Position numbers and translations under genes: made by a program
Shown: in pieces, positions 1 through 20,681 of the stretch
Position numbering within the stretch: the first letter of the stretch is position 1
Layout of the letters: each line of letters starts with the position of its first letter
Source of the DNA: Promicromonosporaceae bacterium
GTDB taxonomy: Bacteria > Actinomycetota > Actinomycetes > Actinomycetales > Cellulomonadaceae
DNA: 32,113 nt
Direction: 5' to 3'
Assembly (NCBI GenBank): GCA_009783295.1
Contig: WRHK01000045.1
Location: forward strand, 1 to 32,113
Notes under the pieces: generated by a model
Told to the model about the DNA's origin: nothing
Seen by the model: only the letters and a program-made list of their open reading frames with translations
Database searches by the model: none

Positions 1-1455
1 ATCGGGCGCGGTTTCGCCCAGTCCCGGCTCGCACGCGATTTCGTCCCGAGGGAGCCGCTGGCCAACCCCGGGCACCCCCGGCCCCTGCCGATCCTCAAGC
101 TCGCCGCCGGCGTGCCCGCCGCGACCGCCGAGGTAGGGGACAAGCGCGGAGTGCTGATCGGGTACACGTCCGGGTTCGCGGAGCGGCCGGTGACGTGGGA
201 CCCGTGGTTCGGGCCCGAGGTGGTCGAGGGGTCCGGGCTGGTGCCGATCGTCGGCGGGCTCGGGGCGGGCAAGTCGTTCTTCGCAGGCGGCGTCATCTAC
301 AAGACCGGCGCCCAGGGCGTGCCGTGGACGGTGCTCGACCCGTCCGGGCGACTCGGCGCGCTGGCGGACCTGCCGGAGTTTCACGGCGTGGCGACGGCGA
401 TCAACCTGCTCCAGTCCGAGCCGGGCGCCCTCAACCCCTACGCGCTGGTGCCCGAACCGTCGCGCTCGTGGTTCGTCGACGAGGCCGACCCGATGCGTGC
501 GCTCGCGCTGGCCAAGTCGGCCGCCGAGGCGCAGCGTCGCGACCTGGTGACGGACACGCTGATCTGGTGCCTGCCGCCGGAGGACCAGGCCAACGGCGAG
601 GTGAAGTCGGTCGTGCGCGACGCCGTCTCCCGGTCCGAGGCGCGCCCGCACTCCACGATCCACGGCGTCATGCAGGAGCTGCAGCACAACCCCGACGGCG
701 ACCGCGAGCTGTGCGCCCGCGTGCTGCGGCGCCTGCACGAGGCCTCCGAGCGAGAGCTCTCGCGCCTGTTCTTCGCGACGCCGTCGTCGGGCAACCACGG
801 CGACCCGCTGAGCGATCGCCGGATGACGTTCTTCAGCCTCAAGGGGCTCGCGCAGATCGACGAGGGCAAGCCGAAGGCCGACTGGTCCTACGACGAGCTC
901 ATGTCGCGCCCGGTGATGTCGCTCGCCGCGTGGTCGGCGCTGCGGTCGGTGTACCGGGTCGACGTCAACAACCGCAAGGGCATGTTCCTCGACGAGGCGC
1001 ACGAGATCACCGCCGTCTCGACCGGCCGCACCCTGGTACAGAAGGTCGCCACGGACACCCGCAAGCACAACATCGCGGCGCTCGTCTCGACGCAGAACGC
1101 GGCGAACGTCATCGGGCAGAACATCAACAACTTCGTGGGGGCGGCATTCGTCGGCAAGACGACCGACGAGGAGGCGCAAGAGCAGAACTGTCGGCTGCTC
1201 GGGCTGCCGGCCGGCGTCGGGTACGAGGCGGAGTTCGCCAAGCTCTCGCGCCGGTCGCGGCGGTCAGAGGACAAGGGCGTGCCGCGCGAGTTCATCTTCC
1301 GCGACGGCATGGGCGGCGAGGACGGCAAGGGCGGCGTCGAGAAGATCACCGTCGACTACTCCAACCACGAGCGGCTGACGTCGGCCCTGAACACGACCGC
1401 CGACCCGACCAAGCGCCGACAGCTCGAGCTCGTGGCGGAGGACGGTGCAGCGTGA
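1..1455 (+). CDS. VirB4-like conjugation ATPase, 5' end outside the window
   Basis: The reading frame is open from base 1, so this is the C-terminal 484 residues of a longer protein; an internal ATG at 112 should not be taken as the start. A Walker A P-loop (GGLGAGKS) is encoded at 253-276 and a Walker B/DEAH-type box (FLDEAHE) around 985-1005, followed by a sensor-like segment (ALVSTQNAANV). This order and spacing match VirB4/TraC/SCO6880-type ATPases that energise T4SS-like conjugation channels at the inner face of the membrane. It is the first visible gene of a coupled operon: its TGA overlaps the next ATG by one base (TGATG at 1453-1457), and GGAGGA at 1437-1442 may serve that start. VirD4-like coupling ATPases share the fold, but the position directly before a VirB6-like gene favours VirB4. 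Confidence 0.82.
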   Translation: MGRGFAQSRLARDFVPREPLANPGHPRPLPILKLAAGVPAATAEVGDKRGVLIGYTSGFAERPVTWDPWFGPEVVEGSGLVPIVGGLGAGKSFFAGGVIYKTGAQGVPWTVLDPSGRLGALADLPEFHGVATAINLLQSEPGALNPYALVPEPSRSWFVDEADPMRALALAKSAAEAQRRDLVTDTLIWCLPPEDQANGEVKSVVRDAVSRSEARPHSTIHGVMQELQHNPDGDRELCARVLRRLHEASERELSRLFFATPSSGNHGDPLSDRRMTFFSLKGLAQIDEGKPKADWSYDELMSRPVMSLAAWSALRSVYRVDVNNRKGMFLDEAHEITAVSTGRTLVQKVATDTRKHNIAALVSTQNAANVIGQNINNFVGAAFVGKTTDEEAQEQNCRLLGLPAGVGYEAEFAKLSRRSRRSEDKGVPREFIFRDGMGGEDGKGGVEKITVDYSNHERLTSALNTTADPTKRRQLELVAEDGAA

Positions 1456-3515
1456 TGCGCCGCCTCGCCGCCGTCGTCCTGGTCGCGCTCGGGCTGGTCG
1501 TGCTCGGGCCGGCGCTGGCTGCCAACGCCGCCCCCGTGGTGCAGGCCGGACCCTTGGCGACGAAGGCGTGCGCTGCGGCTCCCGAGCCGTCCTCGCCCCT
1601 CTCGGGCCTTCCGGGGATGCTCTACCCGAAGCCCAGGACGGCGAGCGACGCCGACCCGTTCCACAACCCTGGCGTGACGATCGCCGACGTCTACGGCTAC
1701 AACTACCAGTGGGTCGACTACGACAACGGCTGCATCCCCGGCGCCGACGCGCTGCCGAAGCTGCAGACCGGCGTCGGGAACTTCCTGATGTCGGGGAGCG
1801 CGGCGGTTTCGGCGTTCACCCACAGCCTGCTCGGCCTTGTGGTGACGCCCGACTTCATGGCTCCACTCGACGGCGTCCTGACGAGCGCGACGTCGGCCAT
1901 CAAGGGCGGGCTCTGGGACCCGTGGGTGACGGCGATCCTCATCCTCGTGGCCGCGGGCGTGCTGGTGGCGGCTTCGCGCTCCGAGATGTCGTCGGCGGTG
2001 ACGACGGTGGGTTGGGCGCTGATCGTCCTGGTCGGCGCGACGTACGTGATGAGCTACCCCGTCGCCTCGGCGCAGGCTGTCGACGGTCTCGTGCAGACGA
2101 CGGTCACGACGTCGGCGCGCGGGTTCGGCGTGAACCAGAAGATCCTCGGGCCGCCGGTCCCGGGGGCAACGCCGCGCGCGAACCCGAACGGCGCGCAGGC
2201 GGCGATCGACAGCATGTTCGACACCCTCAACCGGGACACGTTCTACGACAGCTGGCTCGTGGGGACGCTGGGCTCCTCGGACAGCGCGACGGCGCGGAAG
2301 TACGGTCCCGACCTGTTCAAGGCGTCGCACCTGACATGGAGCGAGGCGTTGAAGGTGCGTGACGATCCAGCCGCGGGCCAGACGATCGTCGACGCCAAGA
2401 AGGCCCTGTGGGTCAAGACTGCGGCCGCCGTCGAAGGCGAGGACTCCGCCGCCTACCAGCAGCTCACGGGCAACAACGGGCGCTGGGACGCCGCCGGGAC
2501 CGTGGTGCTGCGGGTGGGGCTGATGATGCCGTTCCTCATGGTCGCGGCGATCTTCATCGTGATCGCCTACGTGGCGACGCGGGTGTTCGTGCCGCTCGCG
2601 CCCGGGTTCGGCGTGGTGGGGCTGATGTTCTCCGCGCAGGGCTGGGTGATCGCCGTGCTCAAGCAGGTCGGGCGGTTCATCATCCTCGGGCCGGTGTTCT
2701 TCGTGGCCGCGCTGGCGAACCTGCTGCTCGACAACGCCGTGCTGAGCTCGACGCTCGCGTTCGCGCTCCAGCTCGTGATCGTGGCCGCGATCCCGTTCAT
2801 CCTGTTCAAGCTGCTGCGTCCTGGCCGGGCGGTGCCCGGCGCTCGGGGTGCGCGACGGATGGCACGGTCCGGGCTCGGGACGCTCGTCAACGCGTTCGCC
2901 ACGCGGAAGGCCGTCGCGGGCGGGGTCGACGACGCGAAGAAGAAGGCCGACGACGCCGATGCGGCGAACCTGCGGAGGGACGCGGCTCCCTACCGGATCG
3001 CGTACGGCCGGAACGCGCCGGTGGCCGCCGGCGACACGATGGCGCTGCCGGTGGGGTTGCGGCCGCGTGAGCTGGGGGCTGGGGCGCTGAACTACCCGGA
3101 GCTTCCTCGCCGGACTCGGCGGGAGTTCGCTCTTGTGGGTGCGCCGGTGTCCACCGATGGGGCGAATGTCGGTGGCGCCGTTCGCGGGCTGGGGGCCCAC
3201 ACTGCTAGCTCCGGTGAGGGACTGATCGCACATGGGCCGGCCGCGTCGCCGAGCACGGACGTGAGCCGCGGGTCCCGGGCCTCGAGGCTCCCGAGCCACC
3301 CGGCACTCCGCCCCGACGACGGCGACCTCGATCTCTCGGCGCCAGCGGACCGGAACGCGGCACCCCAGCAGCTGATCGACCGCGGGTTCACGCTGCCGTC
3401 CGGGGTGCACGAGGCGTCGACGACGCTCGACCCTGACGGGAACCCGGTCTTCGAGATCTGGCGGCCGCCGGCGGTCGAGCAGGGCAGCACGGACGAGTCC
3501 GAGGGGTACCGCTGA
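1455..3515 (+). CDS. VirB6/TrbL-like polytopic conjugal transfer membrane protein
   Basis: 686 residues. I place the start at ATG 1455, which overlaps the upstream stop; the frame is open much further upstream but that part is out-of-frame VirB4 DNA. The N-terminus is a signal peptide or first membrane helix (MRRLAAVVLVALGLVVLG then ALAANAAP). Two cysteines lie in the segment that follows. Hydrophobic helices follow near residues 155-175, 183-203, 350-390 (two), 407-430 and 432-455. A 230-residue hydrophilic tail rich in Arg, Pro and Ala ends the protein. Helix clusters separated by a large polar loop, next to VirB4-like and VirB8-like genes, fit the VirB6/TrbL family that forms the inner-membrane channel of T4SS. 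The family call rests on topology and context; no sharp motif is visible. The stop overlaps the next ATG (TGATG at 3513-3517). Confidence 0.7.
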   Translation: MRRLAAVVLVALGLVVLGPALAANAAPVVQAGPLATKACAAAPEPSSPLSGLPGMLYPKPRTASDADPFHNPGVTIADVYGYNYQWVDYDNGCIPGADALPKLQTGVGNFLMSGSAAVSAFTHSLLGLVVTPDFMAPLDGVLTSATSAIKGGLWDPWVTAILILVAAGVLVAASRSEMSSAVTTVGWALIVLVGATYVMSYPVASAQAVDGLVQTTVTTSARGFGVNQKILGPPVPGATPRANPNGAQAAIDSMFDTLNRDTFYDSWLVGTLGSSDSATARKYGPDLFKASHLTWSEALKVRDDPAAGQTIVDAKKALWVKTAAAVEGEDSAAYQQLTGNNGRWDAAGTVVLRVGLMMPFLMVAAIFIVIAYVATRVFVPLAPGFGVVGLMFSAQGWVIAVLKQVGRFIILGPVFFVAALANLLLDNAVLSSTLAFALQLVIVAAIPFILFKLLRPGRAVPGARGARRMARSGLGTLVNAFATRKAVAGGVDDAKKKADDADAANLRRDAAPYRIAYGRNAPVAAGDTMALPVGLRPRELGAGALNYPELPRRTRREFALVGAPVSTDGANVGGAVRGLGAHTASSGEGLIAHGPAASPSTDVSRGSRASRLPSHPALRPDDGDLDLSAPADRNAAPQQLIDRGFTLPSGVHEASTTLDPDGNPVFEIWRPPAVEQGSTDESEGYR

Positions 3516-4096
3516 TGTGGGAGGTGTTCGGGCCGATCATCCGGTGGCCGCTTTACTCGCCGCGCCGTTTCCTCGCCGTCGCGGCGGTGGCGCTGGTTGC
3601 GGTGTTCCTGATCGGCAGCGTGAACGGGCACGGCGGTCCGGGCACGGGTTCTGCGTCGCCCACCCCGCCGGTGTCTGCTGGCTCATGGGCGTCGGGTGCG
3701 CCGTCGAGCTCGAGCGCTAACCCCGTGGCGGGTGGGTTGGCTGCTGCGTCGGATGACCTCAGCGTTGACCCTGCGGCCGGTGATCCGACCGCTGCTGCCG
3801 CGGATGCTGCTGCCGCATTCGTAGCCGCCTGGGCGCGCCCGGATCGCAGTCAGGCCGCCTGGGCCGCCGGGGTGCGCCCGCTCGTGACCCACGCGCTGTG
3901 GACGACCGGGCTGAGCCTGACCGAACCGTCAAGCACCCCGGCCGAGACAGTCGCCGGGGAACCGCGGCAGGTGGCGGTCACCGCACACGAGGACGTCTTC
4001 GACGTGCCGACGACGGGAGCGTGGGTGCGCGTGCACCTCGTGCCGGGACCCGCGGCCGGCGCGTGGCTGGTCTCGACGGTCGAGCCCGGCGGATGA
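3515..4096 (+). CDS. VirB8/TcpC-like single-pass transfer protein
   Basis: 193 residues. A short cytosolic N-terminus is followed by one membrane helix at about residues 20-38 (FLAVAAVALVAVFLIGSV). Next comes a Ser/Pro/Gly/Ala-rich extracytoplasmic linker to about residue 95. A C-terminal domain of about 95 residues begins AAAAFVAAWARPD and includes a predicted beta-rich end (VRVHLVPGP...WLVSTVEPG). This layout is that of VirB8/TcpC-type NTF2-fold proteins, which brace T4SS channels in Gram-positive bacteria. The assignment is inferred from architecture and operon position between VirB6-like and M23 genes. Translation is probably coupled to the upstream gene through the one-base stop/start overlap. 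Confidence 0.6.
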   Translation: MWEVFGPIIRWPLYSPRRFLAVAAVALVAVFLIGSVNGHGGPGTGSASPTPPVSAGSWASGAPSSSSANPVAGGLAAASDDLSVDPAAGDPTAAAADAAAAFVAAWARPDRSQAAWAAGVRPLVTHALWTTGLSLTEPSSTPAETVAGEPRQVAVTAHEDVFDVPTTGAWVRVHLVPGPAAGAWLVSTVEPGG

Positions 4097-4109
4097 TCGG
4101 CATCCGACC

Positions 4110-5438
4110 ATGGAAGCGTTCACCGCAGCCGTAGCCCTCTGGGCCAAGCGCCAGGCCGTCGGATGGCTGTCGCGGCACTGGCCGAAGCTCGTGGCCGGTG
4201 TCATCGTGCTCGCGTCGGGCGGCGTGTTCCTCGGGGTGACGGCGGCCGGCCTCATCGCGAGTAGCGGGCAGGTGGCCGCCGCCTCGAACGCCTGCACCGC
4301 GTTGGGCTACACCGTCGACCAGGCGGCCTACCAGCCTGCACCGCTCAACCAGGCGCCCGCGATCCCCACCGGCGGCGCCGTGCCCGGCTTCGGTCCGAAC
4401 GACGGCGACAAAGTCGCCAACGCCCGAGCGATCGTCGCGGCGGGACAGAGTGCTGGCGTCGGCCGACGGGGCCTGATCGTGGCGATCGCGACCTCCCTGC
4501 AGGAGTCCGGCCTGCAGAACCTCAACCACGGCGACCGCGACTCGCTCGGACTCTTCCAGCAGCGCCCGTCGCAGGGCTGGGGCACGCCGCAGCAGGTCCA
4601 GGACCCGACGTATGCGGCGCTGTCGTTCTTCGGCGGGCGCACCTCCCCGCACTTCAACGCAGCGACCGGGAAGGCGTCGCCAGGCGGGCTGCTCGACGTC
4701 GCCGGGTGGGAGACGATGCCGATCACGGCGGCCGCCCAGGCGGTGCAGCGCTCGGCGTTCCCGGGGGACTACGCGAAGCACGAGGCACGCGCGACCATCA
4801 TCGTGGACGCTCTCGCCGGCGGTGCCACGCCACCGCTGCCAACACCCGCGGCAGGCTCGAGCGTCAGACCAGCGGCGCCTGCCGCGCAGCCGGCCGCCTT
4901 GACCGCGGCGGACTACCGCGCGGAGGGCGTCGACATCGCCTCGTTCTGCTCGGCGAACTTCCAGCTCGCCTCGACCACCACCTCGTCGGCTGCCAGCCTC
5001 GGCAGCGACCGCGTGATCCCCGCGGCTGCGTGGACGGCGCCTCTCCAGTCGGCGGTCACCTCGCCGTTCGGGATGCGCTTCCATCCCATCTACCACCAGT
5101 GGCGCCTGCACGCCGGGACGGACTTCCACGCCGTCGTCGGGACCCCGATCGTGGCCCCGACGGTCGGGGTCGTGGAGTCGGTGACCTGGGACTCCGGCGG
5201 CGGCCTCATGGTCATGCTCAAGCACGCGGGCGGCGTCGAGACGCTCCACCTGCACCTGTCGAAAGCCCTGGTGAAGCCCGGAGACACCGTCCAAGGCGGG
5301 CAGGTCATCGCCCTGTCCGGCGACAGTGGTGTCGGCACCGGAGCGCACTATCACTTCGAGATCCACGTCAACGGGGAGCCCGTGGACCCCGAACCGTTCA
5401 TGCTGCAGCACGGAGTGAACCTGCGAGCCTGGTCGTGA
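4110..5438 (+). CDS. Bifunctional wall hydrolase: transglycosylase-like domain plus M23 endopeptidase (VirB1-like role)
   Basis: 442 residues. A membrane helix lies near residues 28-50 (LVAGVIVLASGGVFLGVTAAG). The first extracytoplasmic domain (about 95-215) contains ATSLQESGLQN with Glu132 as the candidate catalytic acid and the SLGLFQQRPSQGWGT signature of lysozyme-like transglycosylase domains in actinobacterial transfer and NlpC proteins. An Ala/Pro linker leads to a C-terminal LytM/M23 domain with zinc-ligand pattern H334-x-G-x-D338, HLH at 380-382 and HYHFEI with H413 and H415. Together these would cut glycan strands and peptide cross-links to let a conjugation channel through the wall. 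The start lies 13 bp after the VirB8-like stop, with only a weak ribosome site. Its TGA overlaps the next ATG (5436-5440). Confidence 0.85.
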   Translation: MEAFTAAVALWAKRQAVGWLSRHWPKLVAGVIVLASGGVFLGVTAAGLIASSGQVAAASNACTALGYTVDQAAYQPAPLNQAPAIPTGGAVPGFGPNDGDKVANARAIVAAGQSAGVGRRGLIVAIATSLQESGLQNLNHGDRDSLGLFQQRPSQGWGTPQQVQDPTYAALSFFGGRTSPHFNAATGKASPGGLLDVAGWETMPITAAAQAVQRSAFPGDYAKHEARATIIVDALAGGATPPLPTPAAGSSVRPAAPAAQPAALTAADYRAEGVDIASFCSANFQLASTTTSSAASLGSDRVIPAAAWTAPLQSAVTSPFGMRFHPIYHQWRLHAGTDFHAVVGTPIVAPTVGVVESVTWDSGGGLMVMLKHAGGVETLHLHLSKALVKPGDTVQGGQVIALSGDSGVGTGAHYHFEIHVNGEPVDPEPFMLQHGVNLRAWS

Positions 5439-6100
5439 TGGACGCCGAGTACTTCATCTTCGAGGACATCAGCTGGCAGACGAAGCCGCCGCCGGCCCGG
5501 CACCCCGTGCCCGCGCGGTACGTGCCGAACCTCGAGGTGGGCGACGAGCTCACGATCGGCGTTCCCGGCCGGTACTACATCGACGGCCAGATCCTCGTGC
5601 GTACCGATCACGAGGACGTGCCGCTGCCCGGGGAGGAGACCCCGCGGGAGTCGCTGGCGTTGTGCGCCCCGCTGTACTACTGGACGTGGCAGGCCGACCC
5701 CAAGCAGACGCCGATCATGCAGTGGTGGCCGGTCGAGCACGCGTGGGTGTACCAGGATGCGGTGGCGCCTGGGTCAGAGGGGGTTGCTCAGGATCGAGAC
5801 GACGACGGCGCTCGGTCGTGGCTCGACCGGGTTCGGGCGGATGCAAACGAGCCGCCGGTGCTCTCCCCCGTGCCGGCGCGCGAGGCCGGCTCCCTGACCG
5901 GGCGAACTCTGCGCGCCCGCAACGCGTCAGGGCAGTGGTTCTGGTTCGTCGGGGTATCCGAGCCGATCAGCGTCGACGGCGACATCTGCGTGCAGGCCGT
6001 CCCGCCGTCCCACTGGTGGCTCCACCAGCTCAGCTACTACGAGGAGCTCCAGGAGAAAGTCCGGACGATCGCGCTGCATCGTTTGTTTGCCTACGCCTGA
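5438..6100 (+). CDS. Hypothetical protein, last gene of the T4SS-like operon
   Basis: 220 residues, family not recognised. The start ATG 5438 overlaps the M23 stop codon; an in-frame GTG at 5435 is an alternative. No signal peptide or membrane helix is visible, so it should be cytosolic. It is rich in Trp and Tyr (for example YYWTW, MQWWPVEHAW, SHWWLHQLSYYEEL) and acidic, which is unusual beside its hydrophobic neighbours. Being translationally coupled to the transfer operon suggests a role in transfer or its control, but that is inference. It is the last gene before a 281-bp gap with a hairpin at 6256-6295. Confidence 0.65.
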   Translation: MDAEYFIFEDISWQTKPPPARHPVPARYVPNLEVGDELTIGVPGRYYIDGQILVRTDHEDVPLPGEETPRESLALCAPLYYWTWQADPKQTPIMQWWPVEHAWVYQDAVAPGSEGVAQDRDDDGARSWLDRVRADANEPPVLSPVPAREAGSLTGRTLRARNASGQWFWFVGVSEPISVDGDICVQAVPPSHWWLHQLSYYEELQEKVRTIALHRLFAYA

Positions 6101-6381: not shown

Positions 6382-8184
6382 GTGGCGAACGTGATCGAGG
6401 GGTTTCCCTTCCAGCCAGGGAGAGAGTTGCTCGCTGATCGTGCGCGGGCTCAGGAGGCCGTCAGTGCGTGTCTAGCGACGCTGCGGACAGGGAAGCTGCC
6501 AGACGACATCGAGCGTCAGCGCGTCGACTTCAAGGAAGAGGCCGGTCGGCGCGGGGCGGGCGGCGTGCTGCTCCCTGGTTCTGCCGAGAACACCCAGGCT
6601 GCCGACCAGCTCTCTGACGAGGTTGCCTACATGGCCAACACCCCAGGTGGGGGCGCGCTGATCGTCGGGGTGGAGAACCGCAGCGGCGACCTGCTCGGGA
6701 CCGAGCTCGATCCCGAGTGGCTGCGTCACCAGATCTACCGGCGTGTCGACGTCGCGCCCGACGTCGAGGTCGTGATCGAGCGCGGTATTCGACTGTTGGT
6801 CATCTACGTGGCCGAGGCCAGGGAACCGGTCGAGGACACGGGCAACAAGATCCGCTGGCGGGTGGGGGCGGCATCGGTTCCCGTGGACCGCGGTGAGTGG
6901 TGGACCCACCGGCAGGGCCGGGCCGGGTGGGACGCGATGGCCCGCTCCAGCGAGCTTGGTGTCGAGGCTGCTACCGCGGGAGCTGTCGCGGTTGCGCGGG
7001 AGTACCTCGGGCGCCGGGATGTGTCGAATGACGTTCAGCAGGATCTCGCGAGAGCACCCATCGCCGACATGCTGCGGCAGCTCGGCGTGCTCACCGTCGA
7101 TGGTCGCCTCACCGAGGCTGGAGCACTTCTGTTCTGCCCGTCACCGCGCCCGTGGCTTACCTGGACTCGGCTCGATGTCGAGGGTGGCGACGTACTCGCC
7201 CAGCACGTCCCGCAGCAGGGGCTGAGCCTCCTGGAGCAGATCCAGCGCGTCGAGGCACTGCTAGAAGCGGCAAACGATCGCGTGACCATCCCCGGCGAGT
7301 TCGCTGAACGTGCTCTGCGTGAACTGCCCGCCCGTTCGGCCCGCGAAGCCATCCTGAACGGGATCGTCCACCGGGACTGGAACCTCCACGAACCCACGAC
7401 AGTCACCTGGGTCGAGGAGGACGCATCGCTGACCGTGGTCTCACCTGGAGGGTTCGTCGGCGGCATCACGTCCGAGAATGTGCTCACACAGCGGTACAGC
7501 CGCTCTCCGGCACTGGCTGACGCCGCCCGCGCCCTGGGACTCGTCGACAAGCAGGGCATCGGTGTCGACCGCATGTTCCGCGAGATGGTCACCCTTGGGC
7601 ATCGGCCGCCCCTAGTCATCGAGGAACCCGGGCCGCGAGTGCGCACCCGTCTGGTCGGCGGGCGTCCGGTCGTGCCTGTCGTGCGCCTGACCTCTCGCAT
7701 CCAGCCCACCGCGCGGCAGCGCGACGTCCAGGTCGCACTGGTCGTCTACACCCTGCTTTACCACCCGTTCGCGACGGCCGACCAGCTGGCAACGGTCCTG
7801 CAGCGCACCCAGGGGGAGGCTCAAGAAGCGCTCGAGACCACCTACAGGTGCGTCATCGACGAACAACCGCTGCTCACGCCCTACAAGGACACATGGCTCC
7901 TGTCCTTGACTGCGCGCCGGCTCCTGGTCACCGCGCGGACCGATCAAGATCTGCTCCGCCGCCTCCGGGTGCTCTGGTACCAGGCGCCCGAACCTGCCGA
8001 CGCACCGGCAGTGGTCACCGCGTGGATGGCGACTCACGACCGGATCACGTCCGGCGACTACGCCGCACTGACAGGGCTCTCAGCGGCAGGGGCCCGCGGC
8101 GTCCTCGACCGACTCGTCAACGATGGCCAACTGGTGCGGGGCGACGCTGCTGGCCGTAACGCCCACTACCTCCGCCCGAGCTGA
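6382..8184 (+). CDS. AlbA_2 (Schlafen-like) domain ATP-binding protein with GHKL-type domain
   Basis: 600 residues, GTG start. The AlbA_2 domain (about 45-160) has RVDFKEE at 47-53 and AYMANTPGGGALIVGVENR, typical of the fold shared with Schlafen proteins. A HATPase_c_4 domain (about 290-430) has REAILNGIVHRD with Asn326, then VSPGGFVGG, YSRSPALADAARALGLVDK and GIGVDRM. The C-terminal 170 residues look like winged-helix DNA-binding repeats. Such proteins are annotated as transcriptional regulators or RecG-like ATP-binding proteins; some AlbA_2 proteins are encoded in defence islands. DNA- or nucleic-acid-directed regulation is the safest reading. It stands alone between two unrelated cargo genes. 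Confidence 0.85.
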   Translation: MANVIEGFPFQPGRELLADRARAQEAVSACLATLRTGKLPDDIERQRVDFKEEAGRRGAGGVLLPGSAENTQAADQLSDEVAYMANTPGGGALIVGVENRSGDLLGTELDPEWLRHQIYRRVDVAPDVEVVIERGIRLLVIYVAEAREPVEDTGNKIRWRVGAASVPVDRGEWWTHRQGRAGWDAMARSSELGVEAATAGAVAVAREYLGRRDVSNDVQQDLARAPIADMLRQLGVLTVDGRLTEAGALLFCPSPRPWLTWTRLDVEGGDVLAQHVPQQGLSLLEQIQRVEALLEAANDRVTIPGEFAERALRELPARSAREAILNGIVHRDWNLHEPTTVTWVEEDASLTVVSPGGFVGGITSENVLTQRYSRSPALADAARALGLVDKQGIGVDRMFREMVTLGHRPPLVIEEPGPRVRTRLVGGRPVVPVVRLTSRIQPTARQRDVQVALVVYTLLYHPFATADQLATVLQRTQGEAQEALETTYRCVIDEQPLLTPYKDTWLLSLTARRLLVTARTDQDLLRRLRVLWYQAPEPADAPAVVTAWMATHDRITSGDYAALTGLSAAGARGVLDRLVNDGQLVRGDAAGRNAHYLRPS

Positions 8185-9836: not shown

Positions 9837-9873
9837 AACGCCCTTGCCGGCCGTTGTCACCGGCGAGGGCGTT
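9837..9873 (+). terminator. Intrinsic-type terminator
   Basis: AACGCCCTTGCCGG (9837-9850) and CCGGCGAGGGCGTT (9860-9873) pair over 14 positions with one imperfect pair and a 9-base loop, followed by GTTCC. It terminates the membrane protein gene ending at 9823. Confidence 0.65.
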
Positions 9874-11160: not shown

Positions 11161-11167
11161 GCCCATG

Positions 11168-11173
11168 AGAGTA
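11168..11173 (-). promoter_or_regulatory. -10 hexamer of a leaderless Nudix transcript
   Basis: TACTCT on the minus strand, 7 nt before ATG 11160. There is no ribosome-binding site. A clear -35 box is not visible. Confidence 0.4.
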
Positions 11174-11252
11174 CGGCCAACCCTGTCGCGCCGGACGAGG
11201 CTCATGCAGGGCCGCTCGGTAAGTTCCAGCGTGTGACTGGACATCTCTAGGC

Positions 11253-14409: not shown

Positions 14410-14416
14410 GCGACAG

Positions 14417-14422: not shown

Positions 14423-14474
14423 GCGACGCATGCGAATCGGAGGGCTCGGCTGCAACCGCGTCCGACTCGGGACG

Positions 14475-15224
14475 CTACGTGGAAGTGGGGAGAGCCCCCG
14501 CCCAGGCTCGCTCGAACGACTCCATGTAGTGCGCAAACAGCCGCCCGCCAGGGATCCGGTTGATGTGCAGCATCGGCGAGTGCCCGGCCGGCGCACCGAG
14601 TGCATGCGGGTTCACGAGCAGCGCGTCGTCGAACCGGAACAGCGACGCGTAGAGCGTGCTCCCATGCTTCCGCGCCTCCACCCCTGCCACCCCGGTGAGC
14701 AGAGGCGCGAGGTAGTTCCACGTCAGCCGGCACCGGGCAGCCATGAGCTCGCCAATCCCCTCCTCCTCGCCCCGCAGCGCGACGGCCGCTGAGTCGGGGT
14801 CCCCGAACAGCAGTCGCACCCGCACGCCGGCTCGAGCCCGCGCAGCAAGCCGGTCCGCGAAGTCGGGAACGCTGTCGTGCAAGAAGCTCCCCGCGAACGC
14901 GAGCAGGTCGATCGCCTCCGTAGCGTTGTCGATGAGCGACTCCCACGTCGACACCGGCACCGACGCACGGCTCGGAAGCAGCTCCACGAACTCGGCCCGC
15001 GTCGCGGAGCGCGTGCGCGGGTCCGCCTCGGTCGCCGGCCAGAGGAACACATCGCTCTTGCCGAGGATGTGGGCCGCCTTCATGCGGTGGGTCCGGTGCG
15101 GCACCCGGTCCTTGGTGATCCACCGTTCGACAGTCTTCGGGTCCACCCCGACCTGCTCGCCGAACGCGGCCAGGGTCAGCCCGGCATCGGTGATCGCCGC
15201 TCGCAGCCGCTCGTTCGTCGTCAT
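14475..15224 (-). CDS. XRE-family regulator with C-terminal DUF5919-like domain
   Basis: 249 residues from ATG 15224 (in-frame GTG 15227 adjacent). Residues 3-55 form an XRE helix-turn-helix (NERLRAAITDAGLTLAAFGEQVGVDPKTVERWIT). The remainder (about 75-245) matches the DUF5919 pattern with TWESLIDNATEAIDLLAFAGSFLHD, RARAGVRVRLLFGDPDS and GSTLYASLFRFDDALLVNPHALGAPA, a phospholipase-D-like fold lacking the HKD catalytic motif. It probably senses a ligand or damage state and represses transcription. It is divergent from the pra-led replication operon, and repeated ACGTCCC sites lie in its promoter, so it is the leading candidate for the element's master regulator. No korSA-like GntR gene is seen. 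Confidence 0.8.
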   Translation of the reverse strand: MTTNERLRAAITDAGLTLAAFGEQVGVDPKTVERWITKDRVPHRTHRMKAAHILGKSDVFLWPATEADPRTRSATRAEFVELLPSRASVPVSTWESLIDNATEAIDLLAFAGSFLHDSVPDFADRLAARARAGVRVRLLFGDPDSAAVALRGEEEGIGELMAARCRLTWNYLAPLLTGVAGVEARKHGSTLYASLFRFDDALLVNPHALGAPAGHSPMLHINRIPGGRLFAHYMESFERAWAGALPTST

Positions 15225-15246
15225 CACGCACCCCCAGGGGCGTCTC

Positions 15247-15306
15247 GGGACGTTTCCTTCACGATAGGACGTCCCTAAACGTCCCGCAAAGCGGTGACGA
15301 CGTCCC
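15247..15306. promoter_or_regulatory. Operator array and promoter between XRE regulator and pra operon
   Basis: ACGTCCC occurs at 15269-15275, 15279-15285 and 15300-15306, and inverted (GGGACGT) at 15247-15253. GGGACGTTT (15247-15255) and AAACGTCCC (15277-15285) are perfect inverted repeats, and GGACGTCC (15267-15274) is a palindrome. Start-to-start spacings of 10 and 21 bp put the direct repeats on the same helix face. On the minus strand a -35 TTGCGG (15289-15284), 17-bp spacer and -10 TATCGT (15266-15261) form a promoter for the regulator, with two sites inside the spacer. This is a typical autorepression layout and could also act on the divergent pra operon. Confidence 0.65.
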
Positions 15307-15323
15307 GTCATCTCCAGGTGTCG

Positions 15324-15340: not shown

Positions 15341-15373
15341 GCCCGAACGTGACACAACCGAGTGGAGATCATC

Positions 15374-15817
15374 ATGGTCATCGCAAGGCGCTTCCCGATC
15401 GCGCACGCCGCGGTCTTCCCCAACGGGGCCTTCCTGCACGGCGTCGTCGAGCCGGTCACGGACTTCCAGGCCGAGCAGCGCAAGGACGGCTCCCGTCCCC
15501 AGCAGCGCGACAAGGAGACGGGCCTGCCGATCTGGCAGTGCGCCGTGATCGACGGCGACGAGGACGCCCGCGCCCGCAGCATCGGCGTGACCGTCAAGTT
15601 CGCGACGGAGGTCATCCCGGTCCCCCCGAAGAACACCTCGGGGCTGCCGTGGACGCCGGTCGAGTTCGTCGGTCTGACGGCGATGCCGTACGTCGACACC
15701 AACGGGCAGAACCCGCGCCTCGCGTGGTCGTTCCGTGCCGACGGGTTCGCTTCCCCGGCCCCGTCGAGCCAGGCGGTACCGTCGGCCAAGCCGCCCGAGC
15801 CGAAGGCGGCCGCGTGA
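15374..15817 (+). CDS. pra: Pra-like activator of replication, integration and excision
   Basis: 147 residues from ATG 15374, with GGAG at 15364-15367; the GTG at 15362 contains part of this site and is less likely. The sequence shows the pattern I know for the actinobacterial 'plasmid replication, integration and excision activator' family (pSAM2 Pra): RRFPIAHAAVFPNGAFLHG, QQRDKETGLPIWQ, PVPPKNTSGLPWTPVEFVGLTAMPYVD and RLAWSFRADGF. In pSAM2 Pra switches on the rep-xis-int operon. Here it is the first gene of that same operon rather than a separate unit, and its stop overlaps the next ATG (TGATG at 15815-15819). The Ala/Pro-rich tail looks disordered. Confidence 0.75.
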   Translation: MVIARRFPIAHAAVFPNGAFLHGVVEPVTDFQAEQRKDGSRPQQRDKETGLPIWQCAVIDGDEDARARSIGVTVKFATEVIPVPPKNTSGLPWTPVEFVGLTAMPYVDTNGQNPRLAWSFRADGFASPAPSSQAVPSAKPPEPKAAA

Positions 15818-16182
15818 TGTCCGCCGCTGAGTTCGACGACGGCTTCGGGACCATCCGCGAGGTCCTCGAGATCGCCGGCGACGTCGTCGGTGAGGTCGAC
15901 GGTCGAGTCGACGGGCTGTACCTCACGACGCGCTCGCTCTCGGTCCACGTCAGCACCCAGGACGACGCCGAGCGGCTCGCGAAGCTGCTCGTCCTCGGCG
16001 ACGTCAGGGCGTTCGAAGCGACCGACGATCGCAGCGGGTTCACGGTGTGGTCTGGCGGCGACATCCCGGCACCACACTTCCAGGTGCTGTGCACGGGGCC
16101 GTTGACCCGACCCGTCCGGGCGTACTCACCGCTCATGGACGTCGTCATCCCGTACGACGTCGTCGGGGGCGAGGTCGCGTGA
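15817..16182 (+). CDS. Hypothetical protein in the replication operon
   Basis: 121 residues, start codon overlapping the pra stop. Acidic, with no membrane helix; begins MSAAEFDDGFGTIREVLEIAG and contains VHVSTQDDAERLAKLLVLGDVRAF and VWSGGDIPAPHFQVLCTG. Not recognised as a named family. Its place between Pra-like and FtsK-like genes, with one-base overlaps on both sides (15817 and 16182), implies it is made in fixed ratio with them. Confidence 0.65.
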   Translation: MSAAEFDDGFGTIREVLEIAGDVVGEVDGRVDGLYLTTRSLSVHVSTQDDAERLAKLLVLGDVRAFEATDDRSGFTVWSGGDIPAPHFQVLCTGPLTRPVRAYSPLMDVVIPYDVVGGEVA

Positions 16183-17639
16183 TGTTCGCCCTTCGGATCG
16201 TCTGGCTCGTGCTGAGCCGGCTCGGCACCGCGTTCTGGAACTCCATCGCCTGGACCGTCCAGTCGTGGCGCACGGTCTGCGTCTGCCTCGTGATCGGTGA
16301 CCTGCTGTTGATCACTGATCACGAGGCGGCCGGCCTCGCGGTGCTGTGGTTCGTCCCGGCATGGAGCACCGTGCGCGCCGCGTGGGATGCGGTGAGTCCC
16401 AGGAGCTACGAGACCGTTCTCGGGGGACCTCTGCGTCGCCGTGAGTGGCGCCGTCGGGTCCGCAAGGACTGGTCCAAGATCGCCCGACGGTGCGGACTCG
16501 TCTGGCCGTGGGAGAGCACGCGACGTGCGGACATCCCGCGCCTGCTGCATGTCCGCGCGCGGGGGAACACCCTCACGCTCGCGGTCCGCGCCGTCATGGG
16601 CCAGACCGTCGATGTCCTGATGGAGGCCGGCGACGCCATCGCCACCGCGGTCGAGGCTGAGGCTGTGGAGTCCCGTCGGGTTGGCCCCGGCGTCGTCGAG
16701 ATGGTCCTGACGATGCGGGAGCTCATCCACGAGCCGGCCACGCCCCGCATGCCCACCGACCTCGAGACCGAGGCGGTCACTCTTGGCCGGCGATCGGACG
16801 GGGCGCCATGGCGGCTCGACCTGAGCGGCAGGCACACCCTCGTCGTCGGTCGGTCTGGGTCGGGCAAGGGGTCCATCTTCTGGGGCATCGCGGGCAACCT
16901 GGCGCCGGCCGCGCACGCCGGCCTCGTGCGGCTGTGGGGCATCGACCTCAAGGGTGGCGTCGAGGTCGCCGTCGGCTCGGCGATGTTCTCGCACGTCGCG
17001 ATGGACGAGCAGGCCGCTCTGCGACTGCTGCGGTCGCTCAACCAGGTGATCGTGGCCCGGCAGGCGGTCATGCGCGGGCACTCGCGCACGTTCGAGGCGA
17101 CGGCGGGCGATCCTGCCCACGTTCTCCTGATCGACGAGCTCGCCGTGCTCACCGGGTACGCGGCTCGCGACGTCGTCAGCGAGGCTTCGGCGCTGCTCAA
17201 GCGGATCCTTACTCAGGGGCGTGCGCTCGGCGTGATTGTGGTCGCCTTCGTGCAGGACCCGCGCAAGGAGACCGTTGCGATGCGTGAGCTGTTCACGCAG
17301 ACGATCGCGCTGCGCGTCGCTTCGACGTCGGAGACCCGGATGGTGCTCGGTGACGGGTACGCGGATCTCGCCCCGGCGCACCGCATCGACCGGACGATGC
17401 CTGGGGCCGGCTACGTGGTGGGCAACGACGGCGTCGTCGACCGGGTGCGGGCTGACTACTGGAGCGATGACCTCATCCGGGTCGTTGCCTCGCGGTATCC
17501 GGCTCCGCCCGAGCCTCCGACGACGGCGGATGACCTGCCCGGTGAGCTCATCACGCTCACCCCGAGCAGCACGGCGCCGGTGACCCGACGCCGGACTCCT
17601 CGCACCCCGCGCGGCGGGGACGACCCGGAGTCGGCCTGA
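16182..17639 (+). CDS. FtsK/SpoIIIE-domain DNA translocase, TraSA/TraB-like
   Basis: 485 residues from ATG 16182. Two N-terminal membrane helices (about 31-45 and 49-62) precede a basic linker and an FtsK-type motor. Walker A is GRSGSGKGS (223-231, Lys229) and Walker B is VLLIDELA (314-321, Asp318-Glu319). The intervening LWGIDLKGGVEV and the later GVIVVAFVQDPRKETV are typical of the family. In actinobacterial AICEs such translocases move double-stranded DNA between mycelial cells without a VirB channel. Here it may instead also serve as coupling protein to the T4SS-like operon at 1-6100. No gamma-like DNA-reading domain is evident in the short C-terminal tail. Confidence 0.88.
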   Translation: MFALRIVWLVLSRLGTAFWNSIAWTVQSWRTVCVCLVIGDLLLITDHEAAGLAVLWFVPAWSTVRAAWDAVSPRSYETVLGGPLRRREWRRRVRKDWSKIARRCGLVWPWESTRRADIPRLLHVRARGNTLTLAVRAVMGQTVDVLMEAGDAIATAVEAEAVESRRVGPGVVEMVLTMRELIHEPATPRMPTDLETEAVTLGRRSDGAPWRLDLSGRHTLVVGRSGSGKGSIFWGIAGNLAPAAHAGLVRLWGIDLKGGVEVAVGSAMFSHVAMDEQAALRLLRSLNQVIVARQAVMRGHSRTFEATAGDPAHVLLIDELAVLTGYAARDVVSEASALLKRILTQGRALGVIVVAFVQDPRKETVAMRELFTQTIALRVASTSETRMVLGDGYADLAPAHRIDRTMPGAGYVVGNDGVVDRVRADYWSDDLIRVVASRYPAPPEPPTTADDLPGELITLTPSSTAPVTRRRTPRTPRGGDDPESA

Positions 17640-19183
17640 TGTCGGCGACCCGCGATGGCTTCTGGGGCCACTCCCCCGACGCTCCCCTCGAGTTGGGCGA
17701 CCTAGCGTCGTTCGAGGTGGAGTCCATCGTGGGTCGCCTGGCCGACCGTTCGATGCCGGCACTCGCCGACACGCTCGCCCGGGCCGGCAACTGCTCGCAC
17801 CCCGTCCGGCTCGCGGGCCGCTCGACCACGATCGACCGCCAGACGGGCGAGATCCTCAGCGTCTTCCGCTCCTCGGACGAGCCGCTTGGGTTGCTCTACA
17901 AGCCATGCGGCAACCGGCGCGACGAGGTCTGCCCGGCTTGCTCCCGGATCTACGCGCGCGACACCTTCGAGCTGATCTCGACCGGCCTCTTCGGCGGCAA
18001 GGGCGTGCGCGACTCGGTGAGCGTGAACCCGCTGCTGTTCGTCACCCTGACGGCGCCCTCGTTCGGAGCGGTGCACAGGGCGAGGAAGGGCAAGCAGCCG
18101 TGCCGGCCTCGAGCCCGGATCGGTGCCTGTAAGCACGGCGTCCGGCTGAGCTGCTGGGCCCACCACGACAACGGCGACCCCGCGATCGGCACACCGCTGT
18201 GTCCCGAGTGCTACGACGTCGACTCGGCGGCCGTTTGGCAATGGCACTCACCCGAGCTGTGGCGGCGCTTCACCATCGCCCTGCGCCGACACCTCGCGAC
18301 GGCGCTGGGTGTTCGCGAGTCAGACCTCAAGAAGCATGCGCGGCTCGAGTACGCGAAGGTCGCCGAGTTCCAGGCCCGCGGGCTCGTCCACTTCCACGCA
18401 CTGGTGCGGATCGACGGCCCCGACGGGCCCGGGTCGCCTGCACCGATCGCGGCGTCGAGGCTGACGGACGTGGTCCATGAGGCTGCCGCCGCGGCGAGCA
18501 CGACGGCGCCTCCTATCGACGGCCGCGACGTCGAGCGCGTGCTCCGCTTCGGCGCACAGACCGATGTGCGGGTCGTGCGCGAGGGCGGCGTCGTCGGCGA
18601 CCAGATCACCGCCGAGCAGGTGGCCGCGTACCTGGCGAAGTACTCGACCAAGTCGGCCGGCGTCGACCCGACCAGGCCGCTCCCCCATCACGCACGACTC
18701 ATCGAGGCCTGCCGTGTGCTCGCCGCTCGAGCCCTGGCCGGCTGCCCGTTCGAGTGCGACCAGCGTGCCGGCGACCGGCACTCGCAGCTCTGCGACGTCT
18801 GCGCCGAGAACCCCTACGCGCTGCTCGGCCGATGGTCGCGCATGCTCGGGTTCCGCGGGCACTTCTCCACGAAGTCCCGCCACTACTCGGTGACGCTGGG
18901 TGCACTGCGTCGTGCCCGACGCCGGTATCAGCGCATCGCCACCAACCCTCGCCTCGCGGCGGCCGCCAAGCTGGACACGCGCGAGCTCGAGCTCCAGCTC
19001 ATGGCCGACGACGAAGAGACCACCCTCGTCGTCGGCTCGTGGACGTACCAGGGCACGGGCTGGCCGAGGGCCGGCGACAAGGTTCTCGCCGACGCGGCCG
19101 CCGCCCGGGCTCGTGAGTACGCGCGCTGGCGAGCCGACAACCGAGCAGCACAGCATCGAGGAAGCGGGGGGAACCCGAGATGA
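17639..19183 (+). CDS. RepSA-like replication initiator (HUH-type candidate)
   Basis: 514 residues, start overlapping the translocase stop. The pattern resembles the actinobacterial 'replication initiator protein' family (RepSA of pSAM2), which starts rolling-circle replication of the excised element. A candidate HUH metal-binding motif is H251-F-H253 (GLVHFHALVRIDG) and a candidate catalytic Tyr block is Y331-L-A-K-Y335 (AAYLAKYSTKSAG). Several Cys pairs suggest zinc ribbons: CGNRRDEVCPAC near 90, the CKHG...CW/CPEC stretch near 160-190, and CPFEC...CDVC near 365-385. Its stop overlaps the xis start by 4 bp. The double-strand origin should lie nearby but I cannot place it. Confidence 0.82.
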   Translation: MSATRDGFWGHSPDAPLELGDLASFEVESIVGRLADRSMPALADTLARAGNCSHPVRLAGRSTTIDRQTGEILSVFRSSDEPLGLLYKPCGNRRDEVCPACSRIYARDTFELISTGLFGGKGVRDSVSVNPLLFVTLTAPSFGAVHRARKGKQPCRPRARIGACKHGVRLSCWAHHDNGDPAIGTPLCPECYDVDSAAVWQWHSPELWRRFTIALRRHLATALGVRESDLKKHARLEYAKVAEFQARGLVHFHALVRIDGPDGPGSPAPIAASRLTDVVHEAAAAASTTAPPIDGRDVERVLRFGAQTDVRVVREGGVVGDQITAEQVAAYLAKYSTKSAGVDPTRPLPHHARLIEACRVLAARALAGCPFECDQRAGDRHSQLCDVCAENPYALLGRWSRMLGFRGHFSTKSRHYSVTLGALRRARRRYQRIATNPRLAAAAKLDTRELELQLMADDEETTLVVGSWTYQGTGWPRAGDKVLADAAAARAREYARWRADNRAAQHRGSGGNPR

Positions 19184-19395
19184 GCAGCATGAGTGTGGAG
19201 CAGACCGCCCGCCGTCGTCTGATGACGCCGGAGGAGCTCGCGGAGTACCTGGGGGTGTCGATGTACTGCGTGTACTCGTGGTCGAGCCGCGGCGGTGGAC
19301 CGAGGGTGATCCACGTCGGCGGCCGACTGAGGTACCGGCCCGACGACGTCGAGGAGTGGCTCGACGCGGTCACCGACGACCGACGGGAGGGCTGA
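19180..19395 (+). CDS. xis: Excisionase-like MerR/HTH_17 protein
   Basis: 71 residues. RRRLMTPEELAEYLGVSMYCVYSWSSRGGGPRVIHVGGRLRYRPDDVEEWLD is the standard helix-turn-helix_17 layout of actinobacterial Xis proteins, which bend DNA at the attachment sites and steer integrase to excision. ATGA overlap with rep at 19180-19183, and GGGGGG 10 nt upstream as ribosome site. It is directly followed by int, with 2 bp between. Confidence 0.88.
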   Translation: MSSMSVEQTARRRLMTPEELAEYLGVSMYCVYSWSSRGGGPRVIHVGGRLRYRPDDVEEWLDAVTDDRREG

Positions 19396-19397
19396 CC

Positions 19398-20618
19398 GTG
19401 GTGCGCGAACGGACGGAGCCGGGGCGCTGGGGTCGGATCAGTCGCACGCAGATCGAGCTTGGCCAGTGGCGTGCACGCGCGCGGTACCGCTCCGTGACCG
19501 GCGTCGCGAAGCTGGTTGAGTCGAGCGCGTCAACGGCAGCAGGAGCAGAACGGGCCTTGGTCGCGAAGCTCGAGCGGCTTCGCGATGAGGAGATGCTGGG
19601 TGGCTCTGGCGACATCACGCCAGCGACGCTCATGACCGACGTCTTCGACCAGTGGATCGAGGAGAAGCGGGCCGGCGGCCAGGTAGTTCCGCAGTCGCTC
19701 GCCAAATACGTCGAGACGTTGGAGTTCAACCTGCGTCCGGCGTACGGGGCGCTCCGGGTCCGGGAGATGACGCCGGTCGCGGTGAACCGCGTGCTTATGG
19801 CGCTGAGCAAGGCCGGCAAGTTCGACACCGCGCGGCAGTGTCGCAACGTGATGTCGCAGGTCATGATGATGTGCGTCCGGTACGGGGCGGCGCCGTTCAA
19901 CCCGGTGCGCGATGCCGTGACCGTCCGCAAGCCGAAGAAGCACGACATCCGGACGATCGATCTCGAGTCGATCGCCATCCTGCGCAAGGCGGTCCGCACC
20001 TGGGAGGAACGACCTGCGGTGAGGGGCGTGCGGAACGTGACGATGCTTCCTCAGATCGTCGACACGATGCTCGGAACAGGGCTCCGCATCGGGGAGTGCC
20101 TTGCGCTGCGGGTCTCGGACCTTGATCTCGACGCCGAGGTGCCCACCCTCACCGTGACCGGAACGGTGGTCCGTGCCGAGGGCCGGCTCTTCCGACAGCC
20201 GAACCCGAAGTCGGACACCTCCGAACGGACGATCGCGCTCCCCGCGCTCGTCGTCACCGCGCTCCGCGAGGCGATCGCCCTTGGCCTCGACGGCGGCCCG
20301 GACGATCTCGTCTTTCCGTCGAAGGTCGGAACGCCACGCTCCCCGTCCCGGGTCCGGGAGCAGCTCAAGCAGGCGCAAGAGGGAACGGGCCTGGACGTGA
20401 GACCCCACGACTTCCGCCGCACGGTGGGTACGCAGGTCGCCAACAACACGACGCTGACATCGGCCTCGATGCTTCTCGGCCATGCGGATGAGGCGACCAC
20501 GCGGGCGCACTATGTGAAGCGCATCCGCATCGCGCCCGACGTGCGCGAGGTGATCGATCAGCTCTTCTCGACGACGGTCACGGCCCCGGCCGGCGGTGCG
20601 AAAACGATGGGAAAGTGA
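19398..20618 (+). CDS. int: Tyrosine recombinase integrase
   Basis: 406 residues from GTG 19398 (GTG 19401 also possible), with GGAGGG 7 nt upstream. Catalytic residues of the phage-integrase family are all visible: Arg230 (GTGLRIGECLAL), Lys271 (PNPKSDTSER), H337-x-x-R340 (RPHDFRRTVG), His362 (LLGHADEATT) and Tyr372 (AHYVKRIR). The N-terminus has an arm-binding region and a SAM-like core-binding domain (about 75-165, MTDVFDQWIEEKRAGG to MMMCVRYGAAPFNP). It ends 63 bp from the tRNA-Ser 3' end, which is the classic position of int next to its attachment site. It appears intact. Confidence 0.95.
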   Translation: MVRERTEPGRWGRISRTQIELGQWRARARYRSVTGVAKLVESSASTAAGAERALVAKLERLRDEEMLGGSGDITPATLMTDVFDQWIEEKRAGGQVVPQSLAKYVETLEFNLRPAYGALRVREMTPVAVNRVLMALSKAGKFDTARQCRNVMSQVMMMCVRYGAAPFNPVRDAVTVRKPKKHDIRTIDLESIAILRKAVRTWEERPAVRGVRNVTMLPQIVDTMLGTGLRIGECLALRVSDLDLDAEVPTLTVTGTVVRAEGRLFRQPNPKSDTSERTIALPALVVTALREAIALGLDGGPDDLVFPSKVGTPRSPSRVREQLKQAQEGTGLDVRPHDFRRTVGTQVANNTTLTSASMLLGHADEATTRAHYVKRIRIAPDVREVIDQLFSTTVTAPAGGAKTMGK

Positions 20619-20633
20619 TGGAGCGGGAAATGC

Positions 20634-20675
20634 GAAGGACCCCAGACCGGCAGAATTCCGGGGCTGAGGTCCTTC
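20634..20675. terminator. Bidirectional terminator between int and tRNA-Ser
   Basis: GAAGGACC (20634-20641) pairs with GGTCCTTC (20668-20675), and an inner CCGG (20647-20650) with CCGG (20658-20661). It can serve int on the plus strand and the tRNA on the minus strand, where ATTTCCC follows. It lies within the presumed element end. Confidence 0.65.
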
Positions 20676-20681
20676 TGGGGG

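Follow-up and report, generated by a model that had tools for sequence, protein, structure and literature searches.

Do the two operons that lie on one contig of a Promicromonosporaceae bacterium belong to a single mobile element, and how would such an element move its DNA? The contig (WRHK01000045.1, C45; 32,113 nt, from a draft genome of 3.98 Mb in 119 contigs) was analysed as a whole and is referred to as the window. At its left end lies an operon for a VirB-like channel (positions 1–6100, here called the cassette), and 9.3 kb further on, on the same strand, a Pra-FtsK-Rep-Xis-Int operon ends at a tRNA gene, which confirms the description in an earlier note on this DNA. Actinobacterial integrative and conjugative elements (ICEs) are divided into those with a type IV secretion system (T4SS) and the actinomycete ICEs (AICEs) (PMC3218068, PMC9513070, PMC3158045). 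AICEs depend on FtsK/TraB and are mostly stated or implied to lack a T4SS, and T4SS conjugation is described in the same papers with a relaxase and a coupling protein (PMC3218068, PMC3158045, PMC7478629, PMC9513070, PMC8190616, PMC12857230). The element has the defining genes of an AICE: a tyrosine integrase with a tRNA attachment (att) site, a RepSA-type gene and an FtsK/SpoIIIE-type Tra protein. It departs from the AICE definition in one respect, transfer machinery without a T4SS, as a cassette with VirB4-, VirB6-, VirB8- and VirB1-like genes lies within the att repeats of the delimited relatives; VirB4 together with channel subunits, a defining feature of T4SS-type ICEs, is present.

In the 12 relatives that could be delimited, the composite is one element and not two in tandem. 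Of the 16 regions tested, 12 (10 of 14 in a first set, both in a second) have exact repeats of 35–62 nt at the 3' end of a tRNA gene that bracket the two operons and enclose 25–38 kb. The target is tRNA-Thr in genomes G016 (repeat 44 nt, element 25.7 kb), G441 (48 nt, 30.7 kb), G433 (56 nt, 29.4 kb), G199 (42 nt, 30.0 kb) and G488 (62 nt, 25.6 kb); tRNA-Ala in G091 (44 nt, 25.4 kb), G349 (48 nt, 29.4 kb) and C. xylanilytica (46 nt, 28.9 kb); tRNA-Gly in the second element of G304 (45 nt, 34.6 kb) and in G265 (43 nt, 32.9 kb); tRNA-Pro in G148 (49 nt, 38.2 kb); and tRNA-Ser-CGA in C. humilata (35 nt, 33.7 kb). The regions lacking an enclosing repeat are the window, where the contig is too short, the first element of G304, G415, with just 2.9 kb to the contig end, and the decayed element of G051 (27 + 18 + 17 nt). 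The control, 600 random 900-nt stretches taken from within the elements, gave not a single exact repeat of 35 nt with other parts of the region.

A 24-nt probe (up to four mismatches) revealed no third att copy inside the 12 delimited elements, and one integrase is labelled in each, so that the internal att copy or second integrase which the earlier note had named as signs of separate elements was not found there. Tandem accretion is refuted for these 12, because the repeats enclose both operons and each element has two att copies only. The composite system proposed in the earlier note, with tandem elements as its alternative, is thereby supported. Beyond the delimited set, the origin of such loci from two independent elements accreted in tandem at a tRNA gene is very improbable. 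Accretion does occur at tRNA sites: close to the composite of G609 (not counted as delimited) lies another AICE in inverted orientation, and the remnant of an integrase flanks the C. humilata composite immediately beyond its left end. Apart from the att copies, however, the same gene order in four family groups and decayed copies at the same tRNA within the genus argue against it.

The association of the two operons recurs in other genomes. Relatives of the C-terminal half of the window's VirB4 were found in 10 of 150 genomes of the family (Cellulomonadaceae in the sense of GTDB), its own included, and the named genera with this VirB4 are Cellulomonas, Oerskovia and Isoptericola. A contig scan with a VirB4 alignment gave 10 loci, eight in genomes already found and two new (C. 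xylanilytica and C. humilata). These two (L063, L064) had been candidates for stand-alone cassettes and were rejected as such, RepSA being present on the same contigs and att repeats around both operons. Up to 40 kb around each of nine VirB4 loci were compared, and three genomes of two further genera (G148, G016, G091) share the order of the window: VirB4-VirB6-VirB8-M23-p220, followed at a distance by HD-NUDIX-HTH-Pra-FtsK-Rep-Int. Among the 12 family genomes with this VirB4, in six RepSA follows downstream on the contig and strand of VirB4 (its own, G148, G016, G091, G150, G151), in two the halves lie at matching contig ends (G135, G076), and four have a cassette without a linked AICE in the sequence fetched (G023, G085, G030, G072).

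Samples of the order and the class were searched at a VirB4 E-value of 1e-60, which selected 22 of 396 and 7 of 394 genomes, respectively (its own in each count). On the strand of VirB4 and no more than 20 kb downstream of it, RepSA is found in 8 of the 18 VirB4-bearing genomes of other families in the order sample and in one of six in the class sample; in total, both operons occur together in 9 of 24 genomes of other families. The same gene order is found in four family groups (f1, f17, f18, f38). The cassette shares the strand of the AICE module and lies to the same side of it in all composites listed, with variable cargo between. The probability of a chance association is about 7e-14, as computed from rough assumed densities. 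Because the same order occurs in other genera and att repeats surround both operons, we consider the association to be far beyond chance. Besides the tRNA sites, the AICE half of C. alba (L052, 9301–10619) adjoins the tmRNA gene, and this composite probably integrates at ssrA.

A coupling protein of the VirD4 type could be traced in none of the composites. Hosts of contiguous composites numbered 14 in this analysis (its own, G148, G016, G091, G150, G151, G441, G304, G349, G265, G433, G488, G415, G199). Inside their composites no PF02534 (VirD4) protein was found, the window's element being seen in part between contigs C18 and C45. A complete VirD4/relaxase set with a separate boundary on the left, which the earlier note had named as counting against its reading, was likewise not encountered in the 12 delimited elements, and PF02534 is missing genome-wide in 9 of the 14 hosts; it is also absent from 7 of 12 genomes of one set and 10 of 18 of the other. 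The genome-wide search for relaxases used TrwC (PF08751) and covered the 12 family genomes, six of which lack it, including the composite hosts G016 and G148. Neither relaxase nor VirD4 turned up when 19 of the 22 genes called in the G016 element were scanned one by one, nor, for 10 elements, among the 25 commonest of 117 Pfam families (119 of 128 unlabelled proteins of at least 90 residues scanned). The only relaxase-like protein among the genes scanned is RepSA, which could itself act as a relaxase.

Covariation of the proteins bears on the question of which partner replaces what. Identity matrices of 11 composites gave correlations of 0.96 for VirB4-VirB6, 0.90 for VirB4-M23, 0.83 for VirB4-FtsK and 0.87 for VirB6-FtsK, and of 0.45 (p 0.009) for FtsK-Rep, 0.23 for VirB4-Rep, 0.13 for VirB4-Int and 0.00 for FtsK-Int. 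Within six f17 elements the values were 0.88 for FtsK-VirB4, 0.72 for FtsK-VirB6 and 0.34 for FtsK-Rep. The 11-composite matrices leave out the window (partial VirB4), G091 and the first element of G304 (near-copies), G199, G609 and the split G135 and G076; the Rep of G441 is called short in this set. As judged from these identities, FtsK tends to travel with the channel several kilobases away rather than with its neighbour rep. The earlier note had suggested that an FtsK-like motor takes the place of VirD4 and Rep that of the relaxase. The first substitution is favoured by the covariation of FtsK with the channel, and FtsK may indeed stand in for VirD4. The second is weaker, since a docked relaxase predicts that Rep tracks the channel and the VirB4-Rep correlation is just 0.23.

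Several of these data also bear on a mechanism like that of ICEBs1/Tn916 or pCW3, in which RepSA would nick the circle as a relaxase, FtsK would be an ordinary coupling protein and single-stranded DNA would enter the channel. ICEBs1 has a Rep-like relaxase. RepSA of the window has a HUH motif (HFH at 251) and a tyrosine (Tyr 331), and the NCBIfam model closest to VirB4 is TcpF of pCW3; the coupling proteins are members of the SpoIIIE/FtsK/HerA superfamily (PMC12857230). The low correlation of Rep with VirB4, the moderate one with FtsK and the fact that cassette-less AICEs, too, use a RepSA from this Pfam family argue against this mechanism, which we judge to be somewhat unlikely.

The explanation that we prefer, and to which we give an even chance, is a single composite class of ICE, in which an AICE chassis carries a Gram-positive T4SS cassette and FtsK docks on the channel without VirD4. 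The cassette of such an element would contain small membrane proteins, VirB4, VirB6, VirB8 and a VirB1-like hydrolase. Excision at the tRNA would be the work of Int and Xis, and the excised circle would be amplified by RepSA, to judge from the protein families. FtsK would then pump DNA and act, in cassette-bearing elements, as the coupling motor of the VirB4/VirB6/VirB8 channel, the hydrolase would open the cell wall, and VirD4 and a dedicated relaxase would not be needed. Docking of FtsK on the channel, passage of DNA through it, the strandedness of that DNA and mobility itself are all inferred parts of this proposal. Double-stranded DNA is the favoured substrate by analogy, because related FtsK and RepSA proteins run the cassette-less sister AICEs. 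That a whole group of AICEs uses an FtsK/TraB-type pump to send double-stranded DNA through a genuine T4SS channel, with neither VirD4 nor relaxase, is a tentative suggestion that falls short of even likelihood. If true, it would represent a third type of conjugation, intermediate between transfer by TraB in mycelia and T4SS transfer that depends on a relaxase.

A number of observations weigh against this proposal. In the four Cellulomonadaceae composites Rep tracks the channel as well as FtsK does, so that this subset cannot discriminate, and the covariation could in part reflect shared descent. In an FtsK tree of 32 sequences, 18 cassette-bearing elements (counting the split G135 and G076) interleave with 14 cassette-less ones, cassette-less meaning that no VirB4 of this family lies nearby (the upstream sequence is short for G085, G415 and contig C18 of G030). 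Cassette carriage changes six times on this tree, at least five of the changes being forced by the starred branches, and a single cassette-bearing FtsK clade is rejected (approximately unbiased test, p-AU 2e-31; some branches are long). The FtsK motor is therefore neither dependent on the cassette nor specialised for it and must also work alone. VirD4 occurs elsewhere in the genome, outside the composites, in 5 of the 14 composite hosts, the window's own included. A cassette on the chromosome without AICE genes was found in three genomes of another family (see below). Furthermore, a recognisable clt was not found: the pSVH1 motif occurs 7 times versus 3.5 expected, which is not significant (7 of 100 shuffles are as high), and its positions are not conserved in the relatives. 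Finally, deletion of the chromosomal cmd cluster of Streptomyces altered sporulation and left transfer of an SLP2 derivative unchanged (PMC2782261).

The tree also shows that cassette carriage is clustered (one of 500 shuffles was as low). The cassette is an optional module which is gained and lost by AICEs, because its carriage changes at least five times. The dN/dS ratio of VirB4 is 0.04–0.21 in three pairs, and the channel genes are under purifying selection.

Gain and loss on this scale would also fit a cassette that is mere cargo, a machine for protein export or for the envelope, in an AICE that transfers by FtsK alone. Chromosomal cassettes without an AICE point in the same direction, a VirB4 that has no accompanying relaxase is counted among the putative protein exporters (PMC3158045), and the cmd cluster affects differentiation (PMC2782261). 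The same cmd genes resemble transfer genes of SLP2 (PMC2782261), however, and cargo would not explain why the side and strand of the cassette are constant in all listed composites with variable cargo between, why it covaries with FtsK, or why it stands next to another FtsK on a RepA replicon of Oerskovia and shows a similar layout near FtsK on plasmids. We regard this explanation as unlikely, and return to the composite ICE with FtsK as its coupling motor. As to the chromosomal clusters themselves, genomes G277, G338 and G251, all of another family, have a cassette-like VirB cluster without AICE genes between housekeeping-like genes, in a conserved chromosomal place (L110–L116, about 10–22 kb in the joined-region coordinates). 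It is possibly a domesticated channel comparable to the cmd cluster of Streptomyces.

The cassette of the window consists of five plus-strand genes which overlap or nearly abut each other. The first (1–1455) encodes the C-terminal half of a VirB4-like ATPase (PF12846 AAA_10, E 1.5e-15; P-loop GGLGAGKS) and is incomplete since the contig starts inside it. A full-length relative of 905 residues matches the NCBIfam model TcpF (pCW3) with E 2.7e-20, which is under the model's own cut-off. The VirB4 profile had no match among PDB sequences, nor did PF03135, a poor probe for this VirB4, in the own genome. The second gene (1455–3515, overlapping VirB4 by 1 nt) codes for a polytopic membrane protein of 686 residues without a Pfam match; the closest to its predicted fold is TrwI/VirB6, and we tentatively call it VirB6-like. 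The third product (3515–4096, 193 residues), again without a Pfam match, has an N-terminal membrane helix and an NTF2-like domain in the predicted model. The predicted fold supports its identity as VirB8, with a VirB8/TraM-like assignment by a second structural aligner; Foldseek gave nothing at E ≤0.001 with this model, the best match (0.018) being the VirB8 domain of PrgL. The fourth is a VirB1-like cell-wall hydrolase of 442 residues (4110–5438; PF01551 M23, E 8e-27) with the M23 histidines and a lysozyme-like stretch around residue 131, as judged by eye. The last, p220 (5438–6100, 220 residues), is not listed in the earlier note and has no recognisable family; it is kept in the Cellulomonadaceae copies, whereas no counterpart was detected in other families' composites.

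The AICE module (15362–20618) is entirely on the plus strand. Its first gene (15362–15817) encodes a product which we take to be Pra, an activator, in view of its position and conservation and a weak match to the NCBIfam SCO3933 family (E 0.048). A gene for 121 residues (15817–16182), coupled to pra and ftsK, has a homologue in G148 and no NCBIfam match. It is followed by the FtsK/SpoIIIE-type DNA motor (16182–17639; TraB/TraSA-like, 485 residues, PF01580 E 5.5e-09, Walker A at 223 and Walker B at 314), the replication initiator RepSA (17639–19183; PF20199 E 1.2e-147, PF23343 E 6e-07), Xis (19180–19395; PF12728 HTH_17, E 4.2e-13) and the tyrosine integrase (19392–20618; PF00589 E 1e-19, PF22022 E 3.6e-11). 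Three copies of the recognition octamer of pSVH1 TraB (17333, 17476 and 17622) fall into a 300-nt stretch at the 3' end of ftsK, and two more stand in tandem at 10564–10579 in the HD gene described below. The int gene ends about 60 nt from the integration target, a tRNA-Ser(CGA) gene on the minus strand (20680–20768), and the right att region (20625–20700) comprises a terminator-like sequence and the 3' end of this tRNA gene.

Between the operons lie cargo and the regulatory region of the AICE. Neither a copy of the att region between the operons nor any att repeat inside the window was found. The Pfam scan of plus-strand open reading frames between the operons revealed no integrase; of the minus-strand genes, one was scanned through its homologue, and two were matched to relatives. 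The cargo includes a Schlafen/AlbA-2 protein with HATPase and DUF5635 domains (6382–8184, plus strand), an extracytoplasmic function (ECF) sigma factor (11253–11834, plus strand; PF08281/PF04542) and a gene coupled to it (11831–12982, plus strand) which is anti-sigma-like by position and has no Pfam match. To the regulatory region belong an HD-domain gene (9844–10740, plus strand; PF01966 E 3.8e-4, just missing the cut-off; its start is probably further in) with homologues at the matching place in other composites, and a minus-strand gene (10690–11244) whose product is presumably a NUDIX-like protein, with homologues 76–95% identical at the matching place in G016, G091, G148 and G051. A divergent helix-turn-helix (HTH) regulator upstream of pra (14475–15311, minus strand) has homologues in several composites, that of G016 matching HTH_31 and DUF5919. 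Cargo of other composites contains restriction and defence-like genes (for example L032:14262–20000, L033:1–3577 and L030:14087–19888), with four C5 DNA methylases, three GmrSD_N and three Eco57I among 119 proteins; the cargo of C. cellasea comprises genes for a nucleotidyltransferase and a patatin.

As the window is a whole contig, the left end of its own element was sought on other contigs of the genome. C18:1578–1653 repeats the terminator and the last tRNA nucleotides with 83% identity to the right att region over 76 nt, covering only 20 nt of the tRNA with one mismatch. Since G051 and C. humilata show a similarly short core with terminator, we accept this repeat as the probable left att site rather than a mere shared terminator. 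The integrases of these two are 76% (G051, one fragment) and 67% identical to that of the window, and the C. humilata composite uses the same tRNA gene as the window. Past 13.2 kb, C18 can be aligned with the left flank of the insertions in G051, G034 and G009. The tRNA-Ser locus was matched in 6 of 11 genomes of the genus, its own included, several with second att-like copies, and is an integration hot spot in the genus. G051, of the same genus, has a decayed composite in the same tRNA-Ser, extending from Int to HD with remnants of p220, fam5 and fam8, and G009 has a shorter composite remnant there. The sole N-terminal half of VirB4 found in the own genome is on C111, which is probably the left continuation of the window; the overlap with its first 212 nt is about 12% different, which might reflect a second copy of the cassette or poor contig ends. 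Continuity of the window's own element across these contigs is thus inferred. Upstream of the small cassette genes, C111 (L015, 2–1593) has transposase-like genes (homologous to an integrase-core protein of G023) and a gene with a SUFU domain. In the same genome, VirD4 is encoded on C89 beside a recombinase and an xis-like gene (neighbours read by eye) and TrwC on C24, so that help from another element would be possible. The region of C89 (L070, 5180–12185) appears to be a separate conventional conjugative element with its own recombinase.

The pairing of an FtsK-type and a VirB4-type protein has partial precedents on plasmids, the apparently new aspect being its incorporation into RepSA-type integrative elements. 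Relatives of VirB4 were found on 87 plasmid records (62 from Rhodococcus), all below 60% identity; 35 are typed as mobilizable and 52 as non-mobilizable. In two of three records examined (pRVR2 and that of Rhodococcus sp. AH-ZY2, both non-mobilizable) an FtsK/SpoIIIE gene lies within 2 kb of the VirB4 relative, and in pSM17C the gene next to the VirB4 relative carries the annotation T4SS DNA-transfer protein; on these plasmids the other cassette genes were judged from gene layout alone. On the Oerskovia RepA replicon the FtsK gene directly adjoins the cassette. SLP2 transfer reportedly uses a Tra/FtsK-type gene. Six co-transcribed SLP2 genes are required for conjugal transfer; three of these resemble SCO4127–4129, among which CmdB is VirB4-like (PMC2782261). 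According to a 2025 review, pumps of the TraB type may or may not form complexes with further proteins in the way that VirD4 joins the T4SS; the review also mentions the proposal that FtsK-like TcpA moves double-stranded DNA (PMC12857230). A description of an AICE with a T4SS was not found in the portions consulted of the open-licence full-text literature (main texts). Detection rules based on relaxase plus VirD4, or on FtsK alone, would file the class as plain AICE, defective ICE or protein exporter. With both machines in one unit of 25–38 kb and cassette-less sisters as natural controls, the question of pump-channel assembly becomes directly testable, and the composites of these soil actinobacteria may shed light on the relation between the two kinds of DNA transfer.

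Compared with known systems, the composites share with AICEs such as pSAM2 and SLP1 the integration at tRNA genes by tyrosine Int and Xis, RepSA, Pra and an FtsK/SpoIIIE-type Tra protein (PMC3218068). In those elements the Tra protein acts alone without a genuine T4SS (PMC3218068), whereas here the cassette is part of the element. VirB4, VirB8, a wall hydrolase and, tentatively, VirB6 are shared with the Gram-positive T4SS ICEs (ICEBs1, Tn916, ICESt3) and pCW3, the composite VirB8 being nearest to TraM of pIP501; unlike these, the composites have no detected coupling protein beyond the FtsK of the AICE and no detected relaxase beyond RepSA. The cmdABCDEF cluster of Streptomyces also combines a VirB4-like ATPase with membrane proteins, a likeness by description rather than sequence, but it is chromosomal and affects sporulation and chromosome segregation (PMC2782261). 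The SLP2-type transfer genes (linked through PMC2782261) and the pRVR2-like plasmids, in which a VirB4 relative stands in similar layout near an FtsK/SpoIIIE gene (pRVR2, AH-ZY2), differ in being plasmid-borne, whereas the composites are RepSA elements integrated at tRNA genes.

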